A stretch of 64,000 bases of DNA from Bryobacteraceae bacterium (GTDB lineage Bacteria > Acidobacteriota > Terriglobia > Bryobacterales > Bryobacteraceae). The notes below the pieces were generated by a model. The model ran no database searches, had not been told where the DNA came from, and saw nothing but the letters and a program-made list of their open reading frames with translations. Every line of letters starts with the position of its first letter. Positions within the stretch are counted from its first letter, which is position 1. Made by a program: the position numbers and the translations under genes. The DNA lies in contig BPGD01000001.1 in NCBI GenBank assembly GCA_026002855.1, positions 3,480,001 to 3,544,000 on the forward strand, in the 5' to 3' direction. Shown here piece by piece: positions 46,763 through 57,259 of this stretch.

Positions 46763-48481
46763 ATGGAGCCGCGCGCGCAGCACCTGCATACGTATTTCCT
46801 GTTTCCGTTCGCGGTGGACAAGGAAGCGGTGATGGCGGACCATCAGCGGGTGTGGTCGAAGCACACGTTGTGGAGCGCCGGGCTGGACGAGTGGATCAAC
46901 GACCATGCCATGGGCGCGGGCTCGCCCGTTCCCGGAAAGCTGGGCCGCTGGCAGCGGGATCCTTTCCGCCGCTTCGACATGGATTCGTTCGCCTATCAGG
47001 ACATGGTGTTCTTCCACCCCTTTGTGCGGCGGGTGTTTTTTGACGTCGGCGACGGCATCAGCGGCGAAGGACCGCCGGAGAACATGCTGCGCGTCTATAC
47101 GATCCCGCTGGCGCATCTGGGCGAGACGGGGCGCAGGCTGGTCTTCTTCGCCGCCGACTCGCGCGGCCGCTCGGCGAGCGCGCAGGTCACCGACCTACGG
47201 CTGTTCATGTTCGCCAACGGGATCGGCATTCTCACCATCGGCGTCGAGTGCACGGACATCGGCGTTTCACAGGCGCTGTGGATCAACGAGATGATGCGGA
47301 AGGTGTATCCTTCCAGCGGCCGGCAGGTGCGCGAGGGGCGCGTGCCCAACCGGATGGAGCTGCGCCTGGAGGGCGGCGGCGAGACGGCGGTGATCAGCGA
47401 GGAACGCTTCTCGCGCTGCGTCATGCGGGGTTACCTGCCGCCGCTCAGCCGCCTGGTCACCGACCTGCTGTATTTCCTGAATTATTCCACGCAGGAGTTC
47501 GAGCCGCTCCTGGACGAGCGGATGACGGTGTATTCGTACATGTCGATCGACCCGGCCAGCGTGGGGCCGGGCTTCGAGCAGAGCGAAGAATACGAAATCC
47601 TGATGTCGCGCTTCCTGTACGTGGACCGCTGGGGCGACGGCTACCGCTACGAACCCGGGTTTACGCGCGAGGCGATGCGGCGCCAGGTGTACCGGCGATG
47701 GGCCCACCAGGGGACGCTCTACGGCTTTACGAGCTATTCCAATGTCACGCTCGTTCTGGGGCGGCACGACTGCGACGAGCACCTGGTCCGCGAGGGTTTC
47801 CTCATCCACCGGATGTTCATGTCGCGCTACTACCTCCAGGTGGTGGTCGCGCTGTTTTACCGCGCCACGCTGCTCGACTTCAGCGAGCGGACGGCGCTCG
47901 TGTCGCGGAGGTTGAGCCGCAAGTTCGGCTCCTATGACATCACCGAAGAGGACACGCGGCTGGTGGCGCGCCTGATGGCCGAAGTGCAGCTCTTCTCCAA
48001 TTACTGGTATTTTCGGGAGCTGGCCAACAAGGACGAGGAAATAGAGCACTTTCAGATGCAGTGCGAGGAGTTCCGCGTGCCGGAAATGAAGGCCGAACTC
48101 GAGCAGGAGATCGAGAAGCTCAACAATACGCTGGAGCGGATCTACCAGCAACGCAACACCGAATCGATCAACCGCCTGGCGATGTTGAGCATGATTCTCG
48201 GCGGAGGGGCGATGATCACGGGCTATTTTGGAATGAATTTCGGCCGGGAATTCGAAGCGCTGTTTTTCCAGGGAGAGAAGCTAAAGGGGCTGCATTATAC
48301 ATCCGTCATTGCGGTGACTCTTCTTGTGGCGGGCTCGCTTCTGTTTGCGACCTATCTGGTCGCCGCCAACTGGAGTGACTACCGCAAAATCCTGCTGCCC
48401 TCGCGGCGGGACACGCTGGAAAGCCTGCGGCGCACTGCGGGCTTCGGCGAGGAGCCGGAGGAAGAGGAAGAGCAGCCGTAG
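46763..48481 (+). CDS. CorA-like membrane protein with very large N-terminal domain
   Basis: 572 residues. The last third looks like the CorA/MIT family: a long coiled helix (EEIEHFQMQCEEFRV..LEQEIEKLNNTLERIYQQRNTES), a first membrane helix (LAMLSMILGGGAMITGYF) ending in the signature G490-M491-N492, an acidic loop, and a second helix (YTSVIAVTLLVAGSLLFATYLV), then a cytoplasmic tail rich in Glu. The N-terminal 440 residues are unlike the usual CorA cytoplasmic domain and contain many aromatic residues and the conserved-looking block HTLWSAGLDEWINDHAMG. It may import or export Mg2+ or a related divalent cation, with an unusual regulatory domain. Confidence 0.75.
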   Translation: MEPRAQHLHTYFLFPFAVDKEAVMADHQRVWSKHTLWSAGLDEWINDHAMGAGSPVPGKLGRWQRDPFRRFDMDSFAYQDMVFFHPFVRRVFFDVGDGISGEGPPENMLRVYTIPLAHLGETGRRLVFFAADSRGRSASAQVTDLRLFMFANGIGILTIGVECTDIGVSQALWINEMMRKVYPSSGRQVREGRVPNRMELRLEGGGETAVISEERFSRCVMRGYLPPLSRLVTDLLYFLNYSTQEFEPLLDERMTVYSYMSIDPASVGPGFEQSEEYEILMSRFLYVDRWGDGYRYEPGFTREAMRRQVYRRWAHQGTLYGFTSYSNVTLVLGRHDCDEHLVREGFLIHRMFMSRYYLQVVVALFYRATLLDFSERTALVSRRLSRKFGSYDITEEDTRLVARLMAEVQLFSNYWYFRELANKDEEIEHFQMQCEEFRVPEMKAELEQEIEKLNNTLERIYQQRNTESINRLAMLSMILGGGAMITGYFGMNFGREFEALFFQGEKLKGLHYTSVIAVTLLVAGSLLFATYLVAANWSDYRKILLPSRRDTLESLRRTAGFGEEPEEEEEQP

Positions 48482-48670
48482 CGGACAGGCGGCGCGAGCA
48501 GGAAACGGTCAGGCGGCAACCGGCCCGGGCCGAGAACGCCTTGCCGCGCTGCCGTAAGAGGCGAGAGTGAAGCGGCCGCAGGCCGCGAGACCGGGCGGCC
48601 ACGCGCAGCGGCATGGAATGCTACCGCCATGCGCCCCGCCGCGGCTGATATCCTGAACATCTTGCCTCCG

Positions 48671-49927
48671 ATGACGGCACGCCGGGTTGTGCTACTGGTC
48701 CTGCTGGGGGCCGCGTGTGCGGCCGCCCAGGAGCCGGCGACACGGGAAGAACTGATCGAGAAGGAGCGCGAGCAGCGCGCCCGGCAGCTCAAGCCGGAAC
48801 GGGCCAGCCGGTGGGAGGAGCGCATCCGTCTGATTAAGGAAAGAAAGATCCCGGAGCGGATCAGCTACGGATATAACGGCCTTCGGGTGAAGCTCGGAGG
48901 AATGATCACCCAGGGCGGTTTCGGCATCGGACCCGAATATTACCGCGAGGATCTCCTCGACGGGCGGCTGGAGGCCCAGGCCGCCTGGCAGATCTCCACG
49001 CGCGGCTATCAGCGCGGCCTCCTGCGGCTCAGGTCCCGGGAGCTGCTCCAGGGTCACGTCGAAGCAGAAATGCTCTCGATGTCGCACTATTATCCGAGCA
49101 TCCAGTACTATGGGCCCGGGCCGGATTCCAGAAAGACCGGCCGCAGCAATTATCTTCTCGATGACAACTCGGTGGACTGGAGCCTCGGCGTGGCGCCCGT
49201 GCGCGGGGTGCTGCTCGGCGGCAGCACGGGTCTTCTGTGGATCAACATCGGGCCCGGCAGGGACGACCGGTTCGCCTCCGCGGAGGCGCTCTATTCGCCG
49301 GTTCAGGCGCCGGGCATTGACCGTCAGACGGATTTTCGCCGGTATGGATCCTTCGTGCGCGTCAATTATCTCGATGACCCCGCCGGCCCGCGCGCGGGGG
49401 GATTCTACGTCTTCCAGTTCAACCGGTATGATGACCGGCGCGGGCCCGGCTATGGCTTTCAACTGCTGGAAACCGAGCTCCGACAGTACATCCCGTTTTT
49501 CAACAAACGGCGCGTAATCGCCCTGCGCGGACGCACGTTGCTCACAGACACAAACGCCGGCGAGTCCGTCCCCTTCTACCTCCAGCCGTGGCTCGGCGGC
49601 CCGGACGACCTGCGCGGGTTCCGCCCGTTCCGCTTCCGCGACCGCAACTCGCTGCTGCTCAACGCAGAATACCGCTGGGAGGTGTTCGCCGGACTGGACA
49701 TGGCCATTTTCACCGACGCCGGAAAAGTCTTTCCGCGGCGGGGCCAGCTCAATTTCAGCCGGCTGGAAAAGAGCTACGGATTCGGATTCCGATTCAACGC
49801 CCGGAACCGGACTTTTCTGCGCATGGATTTTGGCTTCAGCCGCGAGGGATTTCAGGCGTGGTTCAAGTTTAACGACGTCTTTCCGATGCGCCCGCTCGGC
49901 ACGTCGTCGACGCAGCCCTACCAGTGA
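48671..49927 (+). CDS. Omp85-superfamily barrel without POTRA domains
   Basis: 418 residues from ATG 48671 (an earlier ATG at 48629 lacks a signal sequence directly after it). A signal peptide (RRVVLLVLLGAACAAAQ) is followed by a charged coiled segment (about 20-60), then continuous beta-strand repeats. The C-terminal half has the Omp85 motif region LGGPDDLRGFRPFRFRDRNSL, LLNAEYRWEVFAGLDMAIF and DAGKVF, and ends FKFNDVFPMR..SSTQPYQ. No POTRA domain fits in the short N-terminal part. It is likely an outer-membrane protein, a pore or assembly factor. The stop overlaps the next gene (GTGA), linking it to the secreted kinase-like protein. Confidence 0.8.
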   Translation: MTARRVVLLVLLGAACAAAQEPATREELIEKEREQRARQLKPERASRWEERIRLIKERKIPERISYGYNGLRVKLGGMITQGGFGIGPEYYREDLLDGRLEAQAAWQISTRGYQRGLLRLRSRELLQGHVEAEMLSMSHYYPSIQYYGPGPDSRKTGRSNYLLDDNSVDWSLGVAPVRGVLLGGSTGLLWINIGPGRDDRFASAEALYSPVQAPGIDRQTDFRRYGSFVRVNYLDDPAGPRAGGFYVFQFNRYDDRRGPGYGFQLLETELRQYIPFFNKRRVIALRGRTLLTDTNAGESVPFYLQPWLGGPDDLRGFRPFRFRDRNSLLLNAEYRWEVFAGLDMAIFTDAGKVFPRRGQLNFSRLEKSYGFGFRFNARNRTFLRMDFGFSREGFQAWFKFNDVFPMRPLGTSSTQPYQ

Positions 49928-51498
49928 GCGTCATGAAGAAGCTGTTACTCGCTCTCGTCTTTGGCGCGACGGTTTCCGGGCAGAAGTTCTATCCCGACGA
50001 CCCGCTGCTCGTTGAGCCGCCGCCGCTCGACGCCGGCAGGCCGGCGCGGCGGAAACTCTCTGACTGGTACGACCTGTTCTGGCACGTGCTGGCCACGCCT
50101 GGCGAAAAGCAGCCGCGCACGGGCCCGCCCATCCGCGCAAAGAACGTGAACACATTGGGCGACCCGATGGATGGCGCCTGGTACGTGCGCCGCCACTACT
50201 GGCGGCGGATGACGCTCGAAGAACTGCAACGAGGGCCCGGCGGAATGGCGCCGCCCGTGTTTCCCTGGACCGTGGTCGCGGCCAAGGGCGAAGGAATCAC
50301 GCCCGGTTTCACCGTGATTGACGCGACAAAGCGCCGGTTTTTCATCAAACTCGATCCGAAAAGCAACCCGGAGATGATGACGGCGGCCGAGGTGATCTCC
50401 GACCGGTTTTTTTACGCTCTTGGCTATCATGTGGCCGATGAATATATTGTCGAGTTCGACCCGAAAGACCTGGTCATTGAGGACCGGCTTACCTTCGTCA
50501 ACCAGCACGGAATCCAGCGTCCCTTCACCCCGCGCAACCTCACGGAACTGCTGCTGAAGGCGCCGCGTACCAGGAAGGGGCGCTACCGCGCCGTCGCCAG
50601 CCTCGCCCTGGAAGGACAGCCGCTCGGGCCCTTCCGCTGGTTCGGAACCCGGGCGGACGACCCGAACGACATTGTGCCTCACGAACACCGCCGCGAACTG
50701 CGGGCGGCCCATGTCTTCTTTGCATGGCTGAACCATGACGACTCGCGCGCCATCAATACGCTTGACACGCTCATCAGCCGCGGCGGGAAGTCATTCATCC
50801 GCCATCACCTGCTCGACTTCGGCTCCACCCTCGGCAGCGGCAGCGACCGCCCGAACAGTCCCCGCTCCGGCGCCTATCTGTTCGACTGGCGCGAGTCGCT
50901 GATTGAAATGGCAACTCTCGGGCTTCATGTTCCCTACTGGGCGAAGGCGAAATACCCGAAATATCCGGCGATCGGACTGTTTGAATCCAGGGCATTCGAC
51001 CCGGAAAAATGGCTGCCGGAATACCCGAATCCGGCGCTGCTCAACCGCCTGCCGGACGATGAATTCTGGGGCGCCAAACAGGTGATGTATTTTACCGACG
51101 AGGAGATCCGCGCGATCGTGCGCACGGGCGAGCTCTCTGACCCGGAGGCGGAGGAATACCTGGTGCGATGCCTGATCGAGCGGCGGGACAAGATCGGCCG
51201 CGCCTACTTCCGCAAGGTGTTGCCGATTGACCGGTTCGAAGTCCGGGGCGGCGAGCTGGTCTTCGAAGACCTGGCGGCCAAACACGGGTTGCCGTCGCCG
51301 GCGCCGTATGAGATCGTCTGGCGGGAGTTCGATAATGGGACGGGGCAGGCCGGCCGGACCCTGGCAGCGGGCCCGCGTCTCCCTTCCGCGGCTGGCCCAT
51401 ACTGCATGGCAGAGATTGGCTCGGCCTCGAGGCCGGGACAGAAGGTTTTTGTCTGGCTGCGTGGCGCGCAGGTGGTTGGAATCGAGCGCACATGGTGA
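49924..51498 (+). CDS. Secreted protein with kinase-like (HipA/Fam20-type) motifs
   Basis: 524 residues from GTG 49924 (GTGA overlap with the barrel gene); ATG 49933 is an alternative and gives a cleaner signal peptide (MKKLLLALVFGATVSG). Motifs with kinase character: K142 in RFFIKLDPK, E156 in TAAEVISDRFFYALGYHV, then W-L-N-H-D272-D273-S-R-A-I-N278, and L-D298-F-G in HHLLDFGSTLGSGSD. The K/E, D-x4-N and DFG-like order parallels atypical kinases such as HipA, Fam20 and CotH. No known family name can be assigned. The signal peptide means it acts outside the cytoplasm. Coupled genes on both sides (barrel, nucleotide transporter) support a shared function; catalysis is inferred only. Confidence 0.65.
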   Translation: MSVMKKLLLALVFGATVSGQKFYPDDPLLVEPPPLDAGRPARRKLSDWYDLFWHVLATPGEKQPRTGPPIRAKNVNTLGDPMDGAWYVRRHYWRRMTLEELQRGPGGMAPPVFPWTVVAAKGEGITPGFTVIDATKRRFFIKLDPKSNPEMMTAAEVISDRFFYALGYHVADEYIVEFDPKDLVIEDRLTFVNQHGIQRPFTPRNLTELLLKAPRTRKGRYRAVASLALEGQPLGPFRWFGTRADDPNDIVPHEHRRELRAAHVFFAWLNHDDSRAINTLDTLISRGGKSFIRHHLLDFGSTLGSGSDRPNSPRSGAYLFDWRESLIEMATLGLHVPYWAKAKYPKYPAIGLFESRAFDPEKWLPEYPNPALLNRLPDDEFWGAKQVMYFTDEEIRAIVRTGELSDPEAEEYLVRCLIERRDKIGRAYFRKVLPIDRFEVRGGELVFEDLAAKHGLPSPAPYEIVWREFDNGTGQAGRTLAAGPRLPSAAGPYCMAEIGSASRPGQKVFVWLRGAQVVGIERTW

Positions 51499-52886
51499 AC
51501 GTCCCCGAACATCCGTCCTATGTTTCGTTCCCGGTTTTCCGGTCGCTGGACAGCCGGCCGGCGAGCCGGCTGGACCGCTTCCTCTGCCTCTTCGCCGACG
51601 TCCGGGGCGGGGAAGGCGCAGGCGCGCTGCTGCTGTTCGCGAACATCTTCCTCCTGCTTTCGGCCTACTACCTGCTGAAGACGGCGCGCGAGCCGCTCAT
51701 TCTCACCGAGCAGGGCGCGGTGGTGAAAACGTATCTGTCGGCCGGGCAGGCGCTGCTGCTCCTGGTCGTGATCCCTCTTTATAGCCGGTTGGCCTCGAAG
51801 CTGAAGCGCGCGTGGCTGCTGAGCGGGATTTCCGTCTTTTTTGCGGCCAATCTGGCAGCGTTTCATGCGGCAGCGGCAGCGGGAAACCGAATTGGAATTC
51901 CGTTCTATCTGTGGGTGGGAATTTTCAACGTGTTCGCCATTTCCCAGTTCTGGGCATTTGCCAACGACCTGTACACCGAGCCGCAGGGGAAGCGCCTGTT
52001 TCCGTTGATTGGCGTGGGCGCCTCGCTCGGCGCGGTGGCCGGAGCGCGCGCCGCCGCTGACGCGGTGAAGCAGCTCGGCGCATTGCCGCTGCTTGTGGCC
52101 GGAGGGGCGCTTCTGCTGGCATGCGCGCTGCTCACGGTGCTGGCCGACCGCCGGATCTCTGAGCGGGCGGGCGCCGCCCAGTTGCTGGCCCGCCAGCAGC
52201 CGCTCCGCCCCGGCGACGGATTCCTGATGATCTTCCAGGACCGGTACCTGGTGATGATCGCGTTTCTGGTGCTGCTGCTGAACGTGGTCAATACTTCGGG
52301 CGAATTTCTGCTTTCAAGTCTGGTCACCGAGCAGGCCGCGCGTGTCGCGGGCGCGGGACCCGAGTTTGCCGAGGCGCGGCGGCGGTTCATCGGGGCGTTT
52401 TTCGGCGAGTATTTTTTCTGGGTGAACACGCTGAGTTTTCTTTTCCAGGCATTTCTCGTGTCGCGCCTGTTCCGGCATCTCGGGGTTGGCGGCACGCTGT
52501 TCGTCCTGCCACTGATCGCGTTCACCGGATACTCGCTGCTGCTGGCGGCGCCGGTGCTGGGCGTGATCCGGCTGCTAAAAATCGTCGAAAACAGCGCCGA
52601 TTATTCCATCCAGAACACCGCCCGCCAGGCGCTGTTTCTGCCGACGGCGCGCGAGGTAAAGTACAAGGCGAAGGCGGCCATCGACACGTTTTTCCAGCGC
52701 GCCGGCGACGTGGCCCAGGCGGGCATCGTCTGGGCTGGGACAAACGTTCTGGAGCTATCGATCAGCGGTTTTGCGCTGCTGAACCTTGCGCTGACGGTCG
52801 TCTGGCTGCTGCTGGTCATGTATCTGGCGAGAGAGTACCGGAAGAGGAGCGCGGCTGCGTCTGCTCCGCTTCCAGCCGCCTCCTGA
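51492..52886 (+). CDS. NTT-like nucleotide/ADP-ATP transporter family protein
   Basis: 464 residues. The ATG overlaps the end of the kinase-like gene. Twelve hydrophobic helices are spread over the protein. The family signature YYLLKTAREPLILTEQGAVVKTYLSAGQ near residues 57-84 is characteristic of NTT (Npt1/Tlc-like) nucleotide transporters, and the loop NSADYSIQNTARQALFLPTAREVKYKAKAAIDTF near 365-400 resembles their conserved C-terminal loop. In parasites these exchange ATP and ADP across the membrane. In free-living acidobacteria the substrate is not known. It follows a secreted kinase-like gene in the same operon. Its 3' end overlaps the opposite-strand gene at 52816 by 71 bases. Confidence 0.8.
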   Translation: MVNVPEHPSYVSFPVFRSLDSRPASRLDRFLCLFADVRGGEGAGALLLFANIFLLLSAYYLLKTAREPLILTEQGAVVKTYLSAGQALLLLVVIPLYSRLASKLKRAWLLSGISVFFAANLAAFHAAAAAGNRIGIPFYLWVGIFNVFAISQFWAFANDLYTEPQGKRLFPLIGVGASLGAVAGARAAADAVKQLGALPLLVAGGALLLACALLTVLADRRISERAGAAQLLARQQPLRPGDGFLMIFQDRYLVMIAFLVLLLNVVNTSGEFLLSSLVTEQAARVAGAGPEFAEARRRFIGAFFGEYFFWVNTLSFLFQAFLVSRLFRHLGVGGTLFVLPLIAFTGYSLLLAAPVLGVIRLLKIVENSADYSIQNTARQALFLPTAREVKYKAKAAIDTFFQRAGDVAQAGIVWAGTNVLELSISGFALLNLALTVVWLLLVMYLAREYRKRSAAASAPLPAAS

Positions 52887-55050: not shown

Positions 55051-56706
55051 TTACGCGCTCCTGGGAGGAAGCACCGCCATGCCTGCCACGCCCGGCTCCG
55101 GGCAGCGGGCCGCGTACAGCTCGGGCAGGTTCGTGCGCCACCACGTCTCGGCGTCTTCCTGCGACCAGCCGCTGCATTCGGGGCACTGCTCGAGCATCCG
55201 GCGCAGCAGCCGCGCGCTGGCCGGGCGGTCCTCCGGCTTTTTGCTGAGACACTGGAGGACGATCCGCTCCAATTCGGGCGAGAAGCGGATCTCGGTGCGC
55301 TGCGATGGCGGCATGGGATCTTTCTGGACGTGCGCCAGCGCCATCGCCGTCGGTGTCGGCTCCTCAAAGACGAGCGAGCCGGTCAGCAGCCAGTAGGCGA
55401 CGCAGCCGAGGCCGTAGAGATCCGTGCGTCCGTCCACTTCGCTGGCGCCGAGGGCAAGCTCCGGCGCCATGAAGGCGGGCGTGCCGGTGGTGATGTTGTC
55501 CATCGTCATGCGCACGCTGCCGCTCATCAGGCGCCAGCGGGCGAGGCCGAAATCGAGCAGCTTGACGAAATCGAATTCCAGCCCCAGGCGGCACAGGAAC
55601 AGGTTGGTCGGCTTGATGTCGCGGTGCACGATGCCGGCGCAGTGCGCTTCTTCGAGCGACTCGCACGCCTGGCGGAGGATGTGGACGACGCGCGCGCCGG
55701 GCTGCGGGCCGAAGCGCTTGACCAGTTGTTCGAGATCCAGGCCGCGCAGCAGCTCCATGGCGTAGTAGAAATTGCCATTCTGGTCGACGCCGAAATCGAA
55801 CAGCGACACCGTATGGGGCGAAGTGAGCGCGGCAATGGCGCGCGCCTCAAGTTCGAAGCGGCGGCGCATGATGTCGGCCTGCCGCTCGGTGTGGGACAGC
55901 AGAGCCTCGGCGCGGATCAGCTTCACGGCGGCCTCGCGTTTGAGCAGGCGATGGCGGGCGCGCCAGACTTCGCCCATGCCGCCCACGCCGAGCATCTCTT
56001 CCAGTTCATAGCTGCCGAGTTCGCGGGCGTGGTGCATGGAGCACTCCATGCGGAAGATCAGGCGGCTCATCCACCAGGCGCAGCCGGCCACCAGAAAGGG
56101 CGGCACATAGAGCACGCCGATCCGGTTGGGCGTGAGGCCCGGGTCGTGGACCCAGGCGCGAACCATCGCATAAGCCAGGGGGCCCATCGCCGCTGACCCG
56201 AACGCCCCGGCCAAGGCCTGCGCCGGCGAGGCCGGCAGGAACAGGGAGGAGGCGAGAATCCACGCCACCAGGCTGGACATGCCGCGCACGGGCTGGTCTG
56301 GCGGCCAGGGAATGATGGTCTCAAACAGCCCGATGGTGAAGGCCACCATGAGCTGAAAGGAGAGGCCGGCATAGACGCTGAAGCGCGGCTTCAGCCACCC
56401 CAGCCGGTAGGCGGCGACGATCAGGAGCGAAACCAGGATCAGCGCGGCCTCGGCGGCGAGCAGGGCCGGCTGGCGCTGTACGGCGGCGATTTCGGGTTGA
56501 AGGTGCGCCTGGAGGGCGAACAGGGCCACGGTGAGCGCGGCGCAGATCGTCGCGGTCCAGGCCAGCCGCGAGGGCGCGCGCTCGAGCGCCTCCAGCGGCA
56601 GCGCGGACCAGGTGGTGGGCGTGGCGCCCGTCAGGGCAGGGCAGCAGACGCGCGTTCCGGCCAGAGAGCGCGTGCCGGCAGCCTGAGTTGGGTCCTGGCC
56701 GGTCAT
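55051..56706 (-). CDS. Ser/Thr protein kinase with N-terminal membrane domain
   Basis: 551 residues from ATG 56706; a much longer upstream frame is an antisense shadow over rnpB and other genes. About six hydrophobic helices (50-70, 85-102, 112-135, 145-165, 168-185, 198-218) precede the kinase domain (about 233-500). G240-x-G-G-x-G-x-V, K262, H361-R-D-I-K-P-x-N368 and D385-F-G are all intact, and GTPAFMAPE gives the activation-segment end. The C-terminal 45 residues contain CPEC and end in the kinase's own tail. In most bacterial PknB-type kinases the membrane helix is C-terminal, so this topology is reversed. It probably phosphorylates cytoplasmic targets in response to a membrane signal, with the downstream NTT-HEAT protein as a candidate. 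Confidence 0.93.
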   Translation of the reverse strand: MTGQDPTQAAGTRSLAGTRVCCPALTGATPTTWSALPLEALERAPSRLAWTATICAALTVALFALQAHLQPEIAAVQRQPALLAAEAALILVSLLIVAAYRLGWLKPRFSVYAGLSFQLMVAFTIGLFETIIPWPPDQPVRGMSSLVAWILASSLFLPASPAQALAGAFGSAAMGPLAYAMVRAWVHDPGLTPNRIGVLYVPPFLVAGCAWWMSRLIFRMECSMHHARELGSYELEEMLGVGGMGEVWRARHRLLKREAAVKLIRAEALLSHTERQADIMRRRFELEARAIAALTSPHTVSLFDFGVDQNGNFYYAMELLRGLDLEQLVKRFGPQPGARVVHILRQACESLEEAHCAGIVHRDIKPTNLFLCRLGLEFDFVKLLDFGLARWRLMSGSVRMTMDNITTGTPAFMAPELALGASEVDGRTDLYGLGCVAYWLLTGSLVFEEPTPTAMALAHVQKDPMPPSQRTEIRFSPELERIVLQCLSKKPEDRPASARLLRRMLEQCPECSGWSQEDAETWWRTNLPELYAARCPEPGVAGMAVLPPRSA

Positions 56707-56845: not shown

Positions 56846-57259
56846 AGGAGGCCCGGCGGACGGGCAGTCGCGGGCCCGGCGCGTCCCCCAAGGGGGATAC
56901 GGCCGGCGTCCGAGGCAAAGTCCGGTCTCCACAGGGCAGCGTGCCGGCTAACGGCCGGGGGGGCGCGCTCAAAGCGCGCTTCACGGAAAGTGCCACAGAA
57001 AACATACCGCCTGCCGCGGCAACGCGGCGGGTAAGGGTGAAAAGGTGCGGTAAGAGCGCACCGCGTTCCGGGCAACCGGAATGGCAGGGCAAACCCCACG
57101 CGGAGCAAGACCAAATAGGGGAGGATGGAGTGGCCCGCTCCGCCTGACTCCCGGGTCGGTCGCTTGAGCCCGTCAGCAATGGCGGGCCCAGAGGAATGAC
57201 TGCCGCCCGGCCCGCGAGGGCCGGGACCAGAAACCGGCTTAGAGTCCGCCGGACCTCCT
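56846..57259 (+). ncRNA. rnpB: RNase P RNA (type A)
   Basis: 414 bases. P1 pairs AGGAGGCCCGGCGGAC (56846-56861) with the 3' GTCCGCCGGACCTCCT (57244-57259), with one mismatch. Conserved core segments are present in order: GAGGCAAAGTCCGGTCTCCACAGGG-like CR-I, CGGAAAGTGCCACAGAAAAC, GGTAAGGGTGAAAAGGTGCGGTAAGAG, GGCAAACCCCACGCGGAGCAAGACCAAATAG-like CR-IV and CAGAGGAATGACTGCCG with CAGAAACCGGCTTA near the 3' end. It is the ribozyme that matures tRNA 5' ends. P1 is long. It is divergent from the kinase gene and lies just before the rhomboid gene. Confidence 0.95.

Follow-up and report, generated by a model that had tools for sequence, protein, structure and literature searches.

The window analysed here is a stretch of 64,000 nucleotides from a Bryobacteraceae bacterium of the phylum Acidobacteriota (assembly GCA_026002855.1, contig BPGD01000001.1, positions 3,480,001 to 3,544,000 of the forward strand), whose genome is complete at 4.44 Mb. 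It carries a gene cluster in which an outer-membrane barrel of the Omp85 type, OMP85, is followed by a secreted kinase-like protein, KIN, and by a transporter of the ATP/ADP-exchanger type, NTT1. Comparative searches, which covered Acidobacteriota genomes, plasmids and viral contigs, show that the barrel comes and goes with KIN and that genomes with KIN nearly always have an NTT, often in the same cluster. Profile comparisons point to a remote relationship of KIN to the HipA_2 kinases. An exported kinase fed with nucleotides across the inner membrane may be encoded here.

The OMP85-KIN-NTT1 locus

The features of the locus are as follows, with KIN residue numbers counted from the GTG at 49924.

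48671..49927, + strand: OMP85, POTRA-less Omp85-type outer-membrane barrel; signal peptide MTARRVVLLVLLGAACAAA; PF01103 39.7 bits
49933..51498, + strand: KIN, secreted kinase-like protein; 521 aa from the ATG at 49933, 524 aa from the GTG at 49924
50347..50349, + strand: codon of KIN K142, which aligns with the lysine of HipA_2 kinases (hhalign column)
50650..50703, + strand: KIN signature R243-x-D245-D246-x-N248-D249-x3-H253-x3-R257-x2-R260; identical in 76/76 relatives
50740..50757, + strand: KIN catalytic-loop-like D273-x4-N278, by residue conservation
50815..50823, + strand: KIN DFG-like D298-F299-G300, by residue conservation
51492..52886, + strand: NTT1, ATP/ADP-exchanger-type transporter, 464 aa; PF03219 54.9 bits
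52816..55050, − strand: NTT2, longer NTT-related protein, 744 aa; PF03219 15.2 bits, under the cut-off of 21
55051..56562, − strand: Ser/Thr protein kinase, directly before NTT2; PF00069 129 bits; start provisional

The five genes form two converging blocks, OMP85-KIN-NTT1 on the plus strand and Ser/Thr kinase-NTT2 on the minus strand, with an overlap of 71 bases between the 3′ ends of NTT1 and NTT2. The complete layout is found again in loci L025, L102 and L105, the last of which is in a genome outside the window's class, at 35-53 % identity. The Ser/Thr kinase, which has hydrophobic N-terminal segments (by eye), occupies the equivalent position in these three loci and in L101. A neighbourhood survey made with a simple gene caller, which missed genes in several loci, found that OMP85, KIN, NTT and the Ser/Thr kinase (the last in six genomes) recur, as does one other cluster, seen in four genomes.

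An initial annotation of this DNA had proposed an envelope module of three genes overlapping by 4-7 bases, namely an Omp85 barrel without POTRA, a secreted protein with kinase-type residues and a member of the ATP/ADP-exchange family. The three open reading frames are located where it placed them. NTT2 was not among the genes that it named. The 7-base overlap of KIN and NTT1 stands, and it is found also in L018, while the 4-base overlap of OMP85 and KIN is doubtful because it needs the GTG start at 49924. Among three congeners, L021 and L022 have only the equivalent of the ATG at 49933, and L020 has both. The ATG at 49933 is the most likely start of KIN, in which case OMP85 and KIN need not overlap. 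For OMP85, an in-frame ATG at 48629 is a possible alternative start, and the start at 48671 yields a normal-looking signal peptide. The closest sequences include a KIN relative, 87 % identical, on contig JANWVO010000017.1 (Bryobacteraceae, Acidobacteriota). The contig of L018 (DYJN01000038.1; also read as L022) is titled Arcobacter sp., yet its cluster is ~74-84 % identical to that of the window, and the label looks wrong.

The family assignments of the first and third genes are borne out. OMP85 scores above the PF01103 cut-off of 24, although NCBIfam Omp85_fam stays under its own cut-off; no POTRA family of Pfam matches it, and only ~60 residues (by eye) separate the signal peptide from the barrel. 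NTT1 exceeds the PF03219 cut-off of 21. A profile built from NTT1 relatives matches ADP,ATP carriers of known structure (9j3n, E 2.3e-25; 9j3j, E 6.2e-18), and its K-Y-K-A-K-A-A-I-D aligns with the carriers' K-x-K-x-K-A-A-I-D. Relatives of NTT1 and relatives of NTT2 match each other at the profile level (hhalign 99.7 %). The C-terminal half of NTT2 is helical and HEAT-like by eye only, and no Pfam HEAT family matches NTT2.

OMP85 is the fixed partner of KIN. It stands beside KIN in 15/15 of the loci read first and in 29/29 further loci. Of 68 loci taken together, 66 have DNA upstream of KIN, and each of these has OMP85 as the gene immediately before it on the same strand; L111 and L208 stop at a contig edge upstream of KIN. 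It is also present in the 9/9 additional loci read later. The gap between the two genes has a median of 8 bases (63 loci, 51 distinct places). A profile of the partner barrels, to which many of the 66 loci contributed, scores at least 115 bits in these loci, and its best match in 31 KIN-lacking genomes is 77.7 bits. Therefore, OMP85 comes and goes with KIN, and KIN and its barrel are one unit. On one short contig (L110, G306:C103), OMP85 genes and KIN matches each occur twice, in tandem.

KIN and its kinase-type residues

Relatives of KIN occur in 14/41 related genomes (its own genome included) and in 76/396 Acidobacteriota genomes across the phylum. Of the latter, 61 have strong matches (window genome included), and 15 have matches of only 18-39 bits; the best three candidates per genome were scored in this survey, and absence is less certain there. 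No relative was found in viral contigs or plasmids. A hydrophobic N-terminal segment is present in all 36 sequences checked, and the KIN of the window has a signal sequence; its place of work would be the periplasm.

No match in Pfam, NCBIfam or PDB sequences assigns KIN to a family, and a PDB sequence match to a phage termination factor (E 0.27) was dismissed. Profile-profile comparison is more informative. When the KIN profile was aligned with that of HipA_2 proteins from the same phylum using hhalign, the probability was 96.2 % and the score 76.4, against a maximum of 24.9 and a mean of 16.5 for 100 column-shuffled controls. The alignment extends over ~166 columns and places K142, D273, D298 and G300 on corresponding columns. 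The Pfam model of HipA_2, PF20613, does not match the KIN of the window (gathering score not reached); it matches one KIN relative at E 7e-4, and 3 of the 15 KIN members of set A1 with a best E of 0.11. Judged from these profiles, KIN is a remote relative of the HipA_2 kinases, and we rate a kinase-like fold at much better than an even chance.

The initial annotation had suggested comparison with HipA, CotH and Fam20C. Profile comparison groups KIN with HipA_2, and two other candidates were rejected as closest relatives: CotH (PF08757) gave hhalign scores of 13.3 and 13.9, and HipA_C (PF07804) scored 21.3 where 40 shuffles reach 23.7. Fam20C (PF06702) had no Pfam match to the KIN of the window or to the 15 A1 members. 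In another Acidobacteriota genome, ~1.3 kb separates a HipA_2 match from a CotH match (G101:C6:212440-215501).

Conservation of the DFG and D-x4-N residues had been set beforehand as a test, and the triad of D273 (or E), N278 and D298 proves to be jointly kept in 70 of the 76 relatives. Among 67 of these sequences, D273 is kept in 60 plus one E, N278 in 65, D298 in 66 and G300 in 60; all four are kept in the 9/9 further sequences. K142 is a lysine in 58/76 (50/67 and 8/9), its substitutions among the 67 including E (7), R (3) and Q (2). K142, triad and G300 are complete in 57/76. These counts supersede an earlier one of 33/36 for the catalytic residues, which covered the top-scoring relatives only. 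The glutamate that had been listed among the kinase-type residues, E150, did not hold up, being E in only 40/67. Since the triad is kept in 70/76 and K142 in 58/76, the kinase-type residues are more than chance, and a kinase-like set of lysine, catalytic Asp/Asn and DFG Asp is seen in the alignment of most members, not all.

Six KIN copies have a C-terminal extension of ~420-640 aa (L092/L047, L093/L062, L094, L096, L098 and L111, belonging to genomes G108, G130, G144, G196 and G204). They share the stretch F-N-G-H-L-T-x-A-N-S-D-V-R-A-G, and the triad is lost in 5/6. The extension of L092, the one tested, has no match to a Pfam family. In genome G061, the KIN of L197 has lost the triad without such an extension. 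The family thus includes both kinase-like and pseudokinase-like members.

NTT transporters and a second secreted kinase-like family

To what extent KIN and NTT occur together was examined with the NTT1-relative profile in 67 of the 74 genomes with a strong or fragmentary KIN (G020, G027, G081, G109, G120, G204 and G322 were left out) and in 60 KIN-lacking controls. The controls were all 27 from the 41 related genomes and 33 hand-chosen, and so non-random, genomes from the phylum survey. An NTT is present in 64/67 KIN-bearing and 9/60 KIN-lacking genomes (Fisher 2.5e-22). Within the window's family alone, the figures are 10/10 and 2/16, so that the co-occurrence does not come from relatedness alone. 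A Mantel-Haenszel test over four families, in which the second family described below, S2K, was also counted, gives p 3e-10. In the window's genus, G003 is without KIN, NTT and barrel together; in another genus, G227 is without all three, and G329 has KIN and NTT.

The genes are also close together. In at least 35/67 genomes the distance from KIN to an NTT is no more than 5 kb, and in at least 19 no more than 500 bases, where the rough chance expectation is 0.5 % per place, and the NTT match starts no more than 100 bases from KIN in at least 17 places from at least 8 families. Distances were computed from hand-transferred match positions, genes on different contigs were counted as non-adjacent, and the adjacency counts are lower bounds; G220, without a listed match, has an NTT near KIN by tblastn. 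The gene order described initially for the window is therefore not limited to it: OMP85-KIN is widespread, and NTT is often beside the pair.

Three KIN genomes are without NTT, of which G061 and G108 have a KIN with the triad lost and G064 has an intact KIN. Expressed by active site, NTT is found in 64/65 genomes with a triad-bearing KIN and in 0/2 genomes with triad-less KIN only (p 0.0014, on small numbers); every one of the 67 genomes contributed at least one KIN copy to this reading, and those with several copies did not always contribute all of them.

A second secreted kinase-like family, S2K, was found through a weak HipA_2 match, L079, and is present in 61/297 genomes (best six copies per genome scored). 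It is weakly related to PI3/PI4 kinases, HipA_2, Fam20C and TIGR03843. One member reaches 28.0 bits for PF00454 (cut-off 27.1), and some of the proteins show weak similarity to Fam20C (best E 0.0043). A hydrophobic segment lies within the first 70 residues in 27/35 frames. Joining S2K and KIN in one family was rejected, the score of 25.9 being too weak against up to 21.3 in 30 shuffles. S2K has the same relation to NTT. Among the 31 genomes with S2K and no strong KIN match, 29 have an NTT, and the two without are those with the weakest S2K matches (E 6.6e-4 and 7.8e-4). When three genomes whose NTT was already known are added, at least 19/34 have an NTT no farther than 5 kb from S2K, and at least 9 have one no farther than 500 bases. 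Most S2K loci read are without a KIN-type Omp85; S2K is near KIN in G147, G156, G395 and G207. NTT-HEAT proteins with a cyclic-nucleotide-binding domain (NTT-HEAT-cNMP) also stand in S2K loci. In L184 (G156:C204), an NTT-HEAT-cNMP, a second NTT, OMP85, KIN, two S2K and a further NTT-type frame lie within 19 kb.

A Metallophos domain was found in 8 of the 12 S2K frames scanned, which were picked partly for length. Six of the fusions are the following.

L167, 12192-14048, − strand: calcineurin-like phosphatase fused to S2K domain
L171, 4747-6585, + strand: calcineurin-like phosphatase fused to S2K domain
L174, 6925-8784, − strand: calcineurin-like phosphatase fused to S2K domain
L175, 4099-6072, + strand: calcineurin-like phosphatase fused to S2K domain
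L176, 4203-6149, + strand: calcineurin-like phosphatase fused to S2K domain
L178, 8466-10646, + strand: calcineurin-like phosphatase fused to S2K domain

Phosphatase-S2K fusions are found also in L172 and L177, and most fusion loci hold NTT genes. A phosphatase on the same protein is what reversible phosphorylation would want. It can also be read in another way, namely that the module scavenges nucleotides or phosphate, with NTT as importer, the secreted proteins as processing enzymes and the barrel as the entry through the outer membrane. Import is the direction described for NTTs of intracellular bacteria in PMC5381601. We consider scavenging quite improbable. Periplasmic kinase-type active sites would consume the ATP that was to be imported, the ATP gradient of a free-living cell is directed outwards, and Omp85 barrels mostly handle proteins.

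The same data bear on two simpler explanations. The fixed, immediately adjacent Omp85-KIN pair resembles the gene pairs of partner secretion, and the barrel might secrete KIN to the cell surface to modify other cells, NTT being an unrelated neighbour. This we hold to be improbable to a slightly greater degree than scavenging: OMP85 is without the POTRA that two-partner transporters have, the association with NTT is stronger than an unrelated neighbour would show, and S2K has that association mostly without a KIN-type Omp85 in the loci read. Least probable is that NTT and the secreted kinases are co-inherited for ecological reasons only and do no joint work. Both are patchy, with exceptions on both sides, as such a reading would expect, but the proximity of NTT to both KIN and S2K speaks against it, as do the matches within 100 bases of KIN in at least eight families. 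A functional link between NTT and the secreted kinases is, in our judgement, probable. The initial suggestion that NTT supplies nucleotide to an envelope kinase has in this way gained comparative support, from KIN and separately from S2K, while kinase activity, ATP export and envelope phosphorylation are steps that we infer. Overall, the initial interpretation is partly supported.

Two further genes flank the cluster in the window. A CorA-like large membrane protein (46763-48481, + strand, 572 aa, PF01544 31.7 bits) is encoded just upstream of OMP85 and has no match in 15 related loci. A bacterial RNase P RNA of class A (56852-57257, + strand) has the Ser/Thr kinase on one side and a rhomboid protease gene on the other.

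A proposed nucleotide-fed envelope module and known systems

We propose that KIN is exported and would act in the envelope as an enzyme of HipA-like kinase fold, either bound to its own POTRA-less Omp85 barrel or transported through it. Through the inner-membrane NTTs, ATP from the cytoplasm would leave against ADP produced by the kinase, and the envelope could thus be supplied with a phosphate donor with no net loss of nucleotide. As substrate of KIN, we picture a component of the envelope or cell surface that comes into contact with the barrel. The distribution of NTT is consistent with exported kinases that depend on a source of nucleotide: NTT is nearly always present, and often in the same cluster, for two secreted kinase-like families, and is absent in the two genomes in which the active site of KIN is gone. 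As a whole, from exported kinase through barrel to ATP/ADP exchange, we regard this mechanism as evenly poised between right and wrong.

Several observations weigh against the proposal. AF2 models of KIN (mature protein and core) reached pLDDT of only 38 and 41, from an alignment of three near-identical sequences (window, L017 and L018). K142 is replaced by E or Q in 9/67 relatives, several of which have NTT1 as the next gene (L105, L200, L201, L202 and L203); in such proteins another lysine may serve (K121, present in 63/67), or they may not be ordinary kinases. S2K and KIN, moreover, do not clearly appear to be one family. On the transporter side, the matches listed for 32/67 KIN genomes include no NTT at 5 kb or less from KIN, many of the contigs being fragmented, and G064 combines an intact KIN with no NTT. 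Six KIN-lacking genomes without a known S2K (G007, G013, G067, G103, G106 and G137) have an NTT with no kinase-like gene found adjacent, and the idea that every NTT of KIN-lacking genomes stands beside some kinase failed on their ten loci; some of these NTTs lie close to the end of a contig, and the S2K search covered only parts of G007 and G013. It follows that the kinases seem to depend on NTT, and NTT seems not to depend on the kinases.

The signature is a further such point. R-x-D-D-x-N-D-x3-H-x3-R-x2-R is unchanged in every relative, even in those that have lost the triad, and a kinase model does not explain it. It could instead be the working part of a protein that is kinase-like in fold and serves the Omp85 barrel as a nucleotide-binding or structural partner, for example a plug or chaperone. 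The extended subfamily would suit such a role, since the Omp85 is kept in all 5 copies with upstream DNA while the triad is mostly gone. However, the triad persists in the great majority of KIN relatives, and the two genomes with triad-less KIN only are without NTT, which ties these residues to the transporter. Such a partner role is considered unlikely.

It is tempting to extend the proposal to the phylum. Acidobacteriota may run an ATP-dependent, reversible extracytoplasmic phosphorylation, in which at least two distinct secreted kinase families, KIN with its Omp85 barrel and S2K, the latter partly fused to phosphatases, would be fed by NTTs that export ATP against ADP; we place this slightly short of an even chance. 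The bacterial envelope is generally regarded as being without an ATP supply, and no prior description of a nucleotide-fed envelope phosphorylation module was found in searches of the open PMC literature. The parts of such a module come from known superfamilies. If the proposal is true, it gives a first function for the NTT and NTT-HEAT transporters of free-living bacteria, and, if it is confirmed, envelope biology gains a phosphorylation layer. The shared occurrence of exported kinase-like proteins and NTTs in a single phylum, with NTT absent from the two genomes whose KIN has lost its active site, joins two questions, which, if the proposal is confirmed, become testable with a few genes in one cluster.

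Among known systems, NTT1 is like the known NTT carriers, being above the Pfam cut-off and matching solved carriers. According to PMC5381601, the characterised NTT or ADP,ATP carriers come from parasites and plastids, the function of the NTT-HEAT and NTT-HEAT-cNBD forms of free-living bacteria is only conjectured, and a cyclic-nucleotide-binding protein is reported as gene neighbour of a free-living bacterial NTT. Omp85 proteins without an N-terminal extension are known as 'noNterm', for which PMC4104836 suggests membrane-protein assembly; its abstract names the patatin-type Omp85 PlpD, and the word 'kinase' does not occur in its main text. OMP85 resembles 'noNterm' in being a barrel without POTRA and differs from it as a subfamily tied to KIN. 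Of the POTRA that would mark two-partner or type Vd secretion, OMP85 shows nothing (no Pfam match and a short N-terminal region).

KIN shares with HipA_2 (PF20613) the profile match, with K, D and D-x-G columns coinciding. The HipA_2 proteins read measure ~260-340 aa, and by eye they show no obvious signal peptide. Beyond HipA_2, KIN has ~120 extra N-terminal residues, the invariant R-x-D-D-x-N-D motif, a C-terminal part and the Omp85 partner. The CotH kinases of the spore coat and the Fam20C kinases of the secretory pathway are kinase-fold enzymes acting outside the cytosol, and neither is known to have a partner of the NTT or Omp85 type. The nearest parallel is eukaryotic, where the kinases of the Golgi and endoplasmic reticulum are supplied by an ATP/ADP exchanger. 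These systems likewise join a non-cytosolic kinase with an exchanger, which there belongs to another transporter family and serves another compartment.

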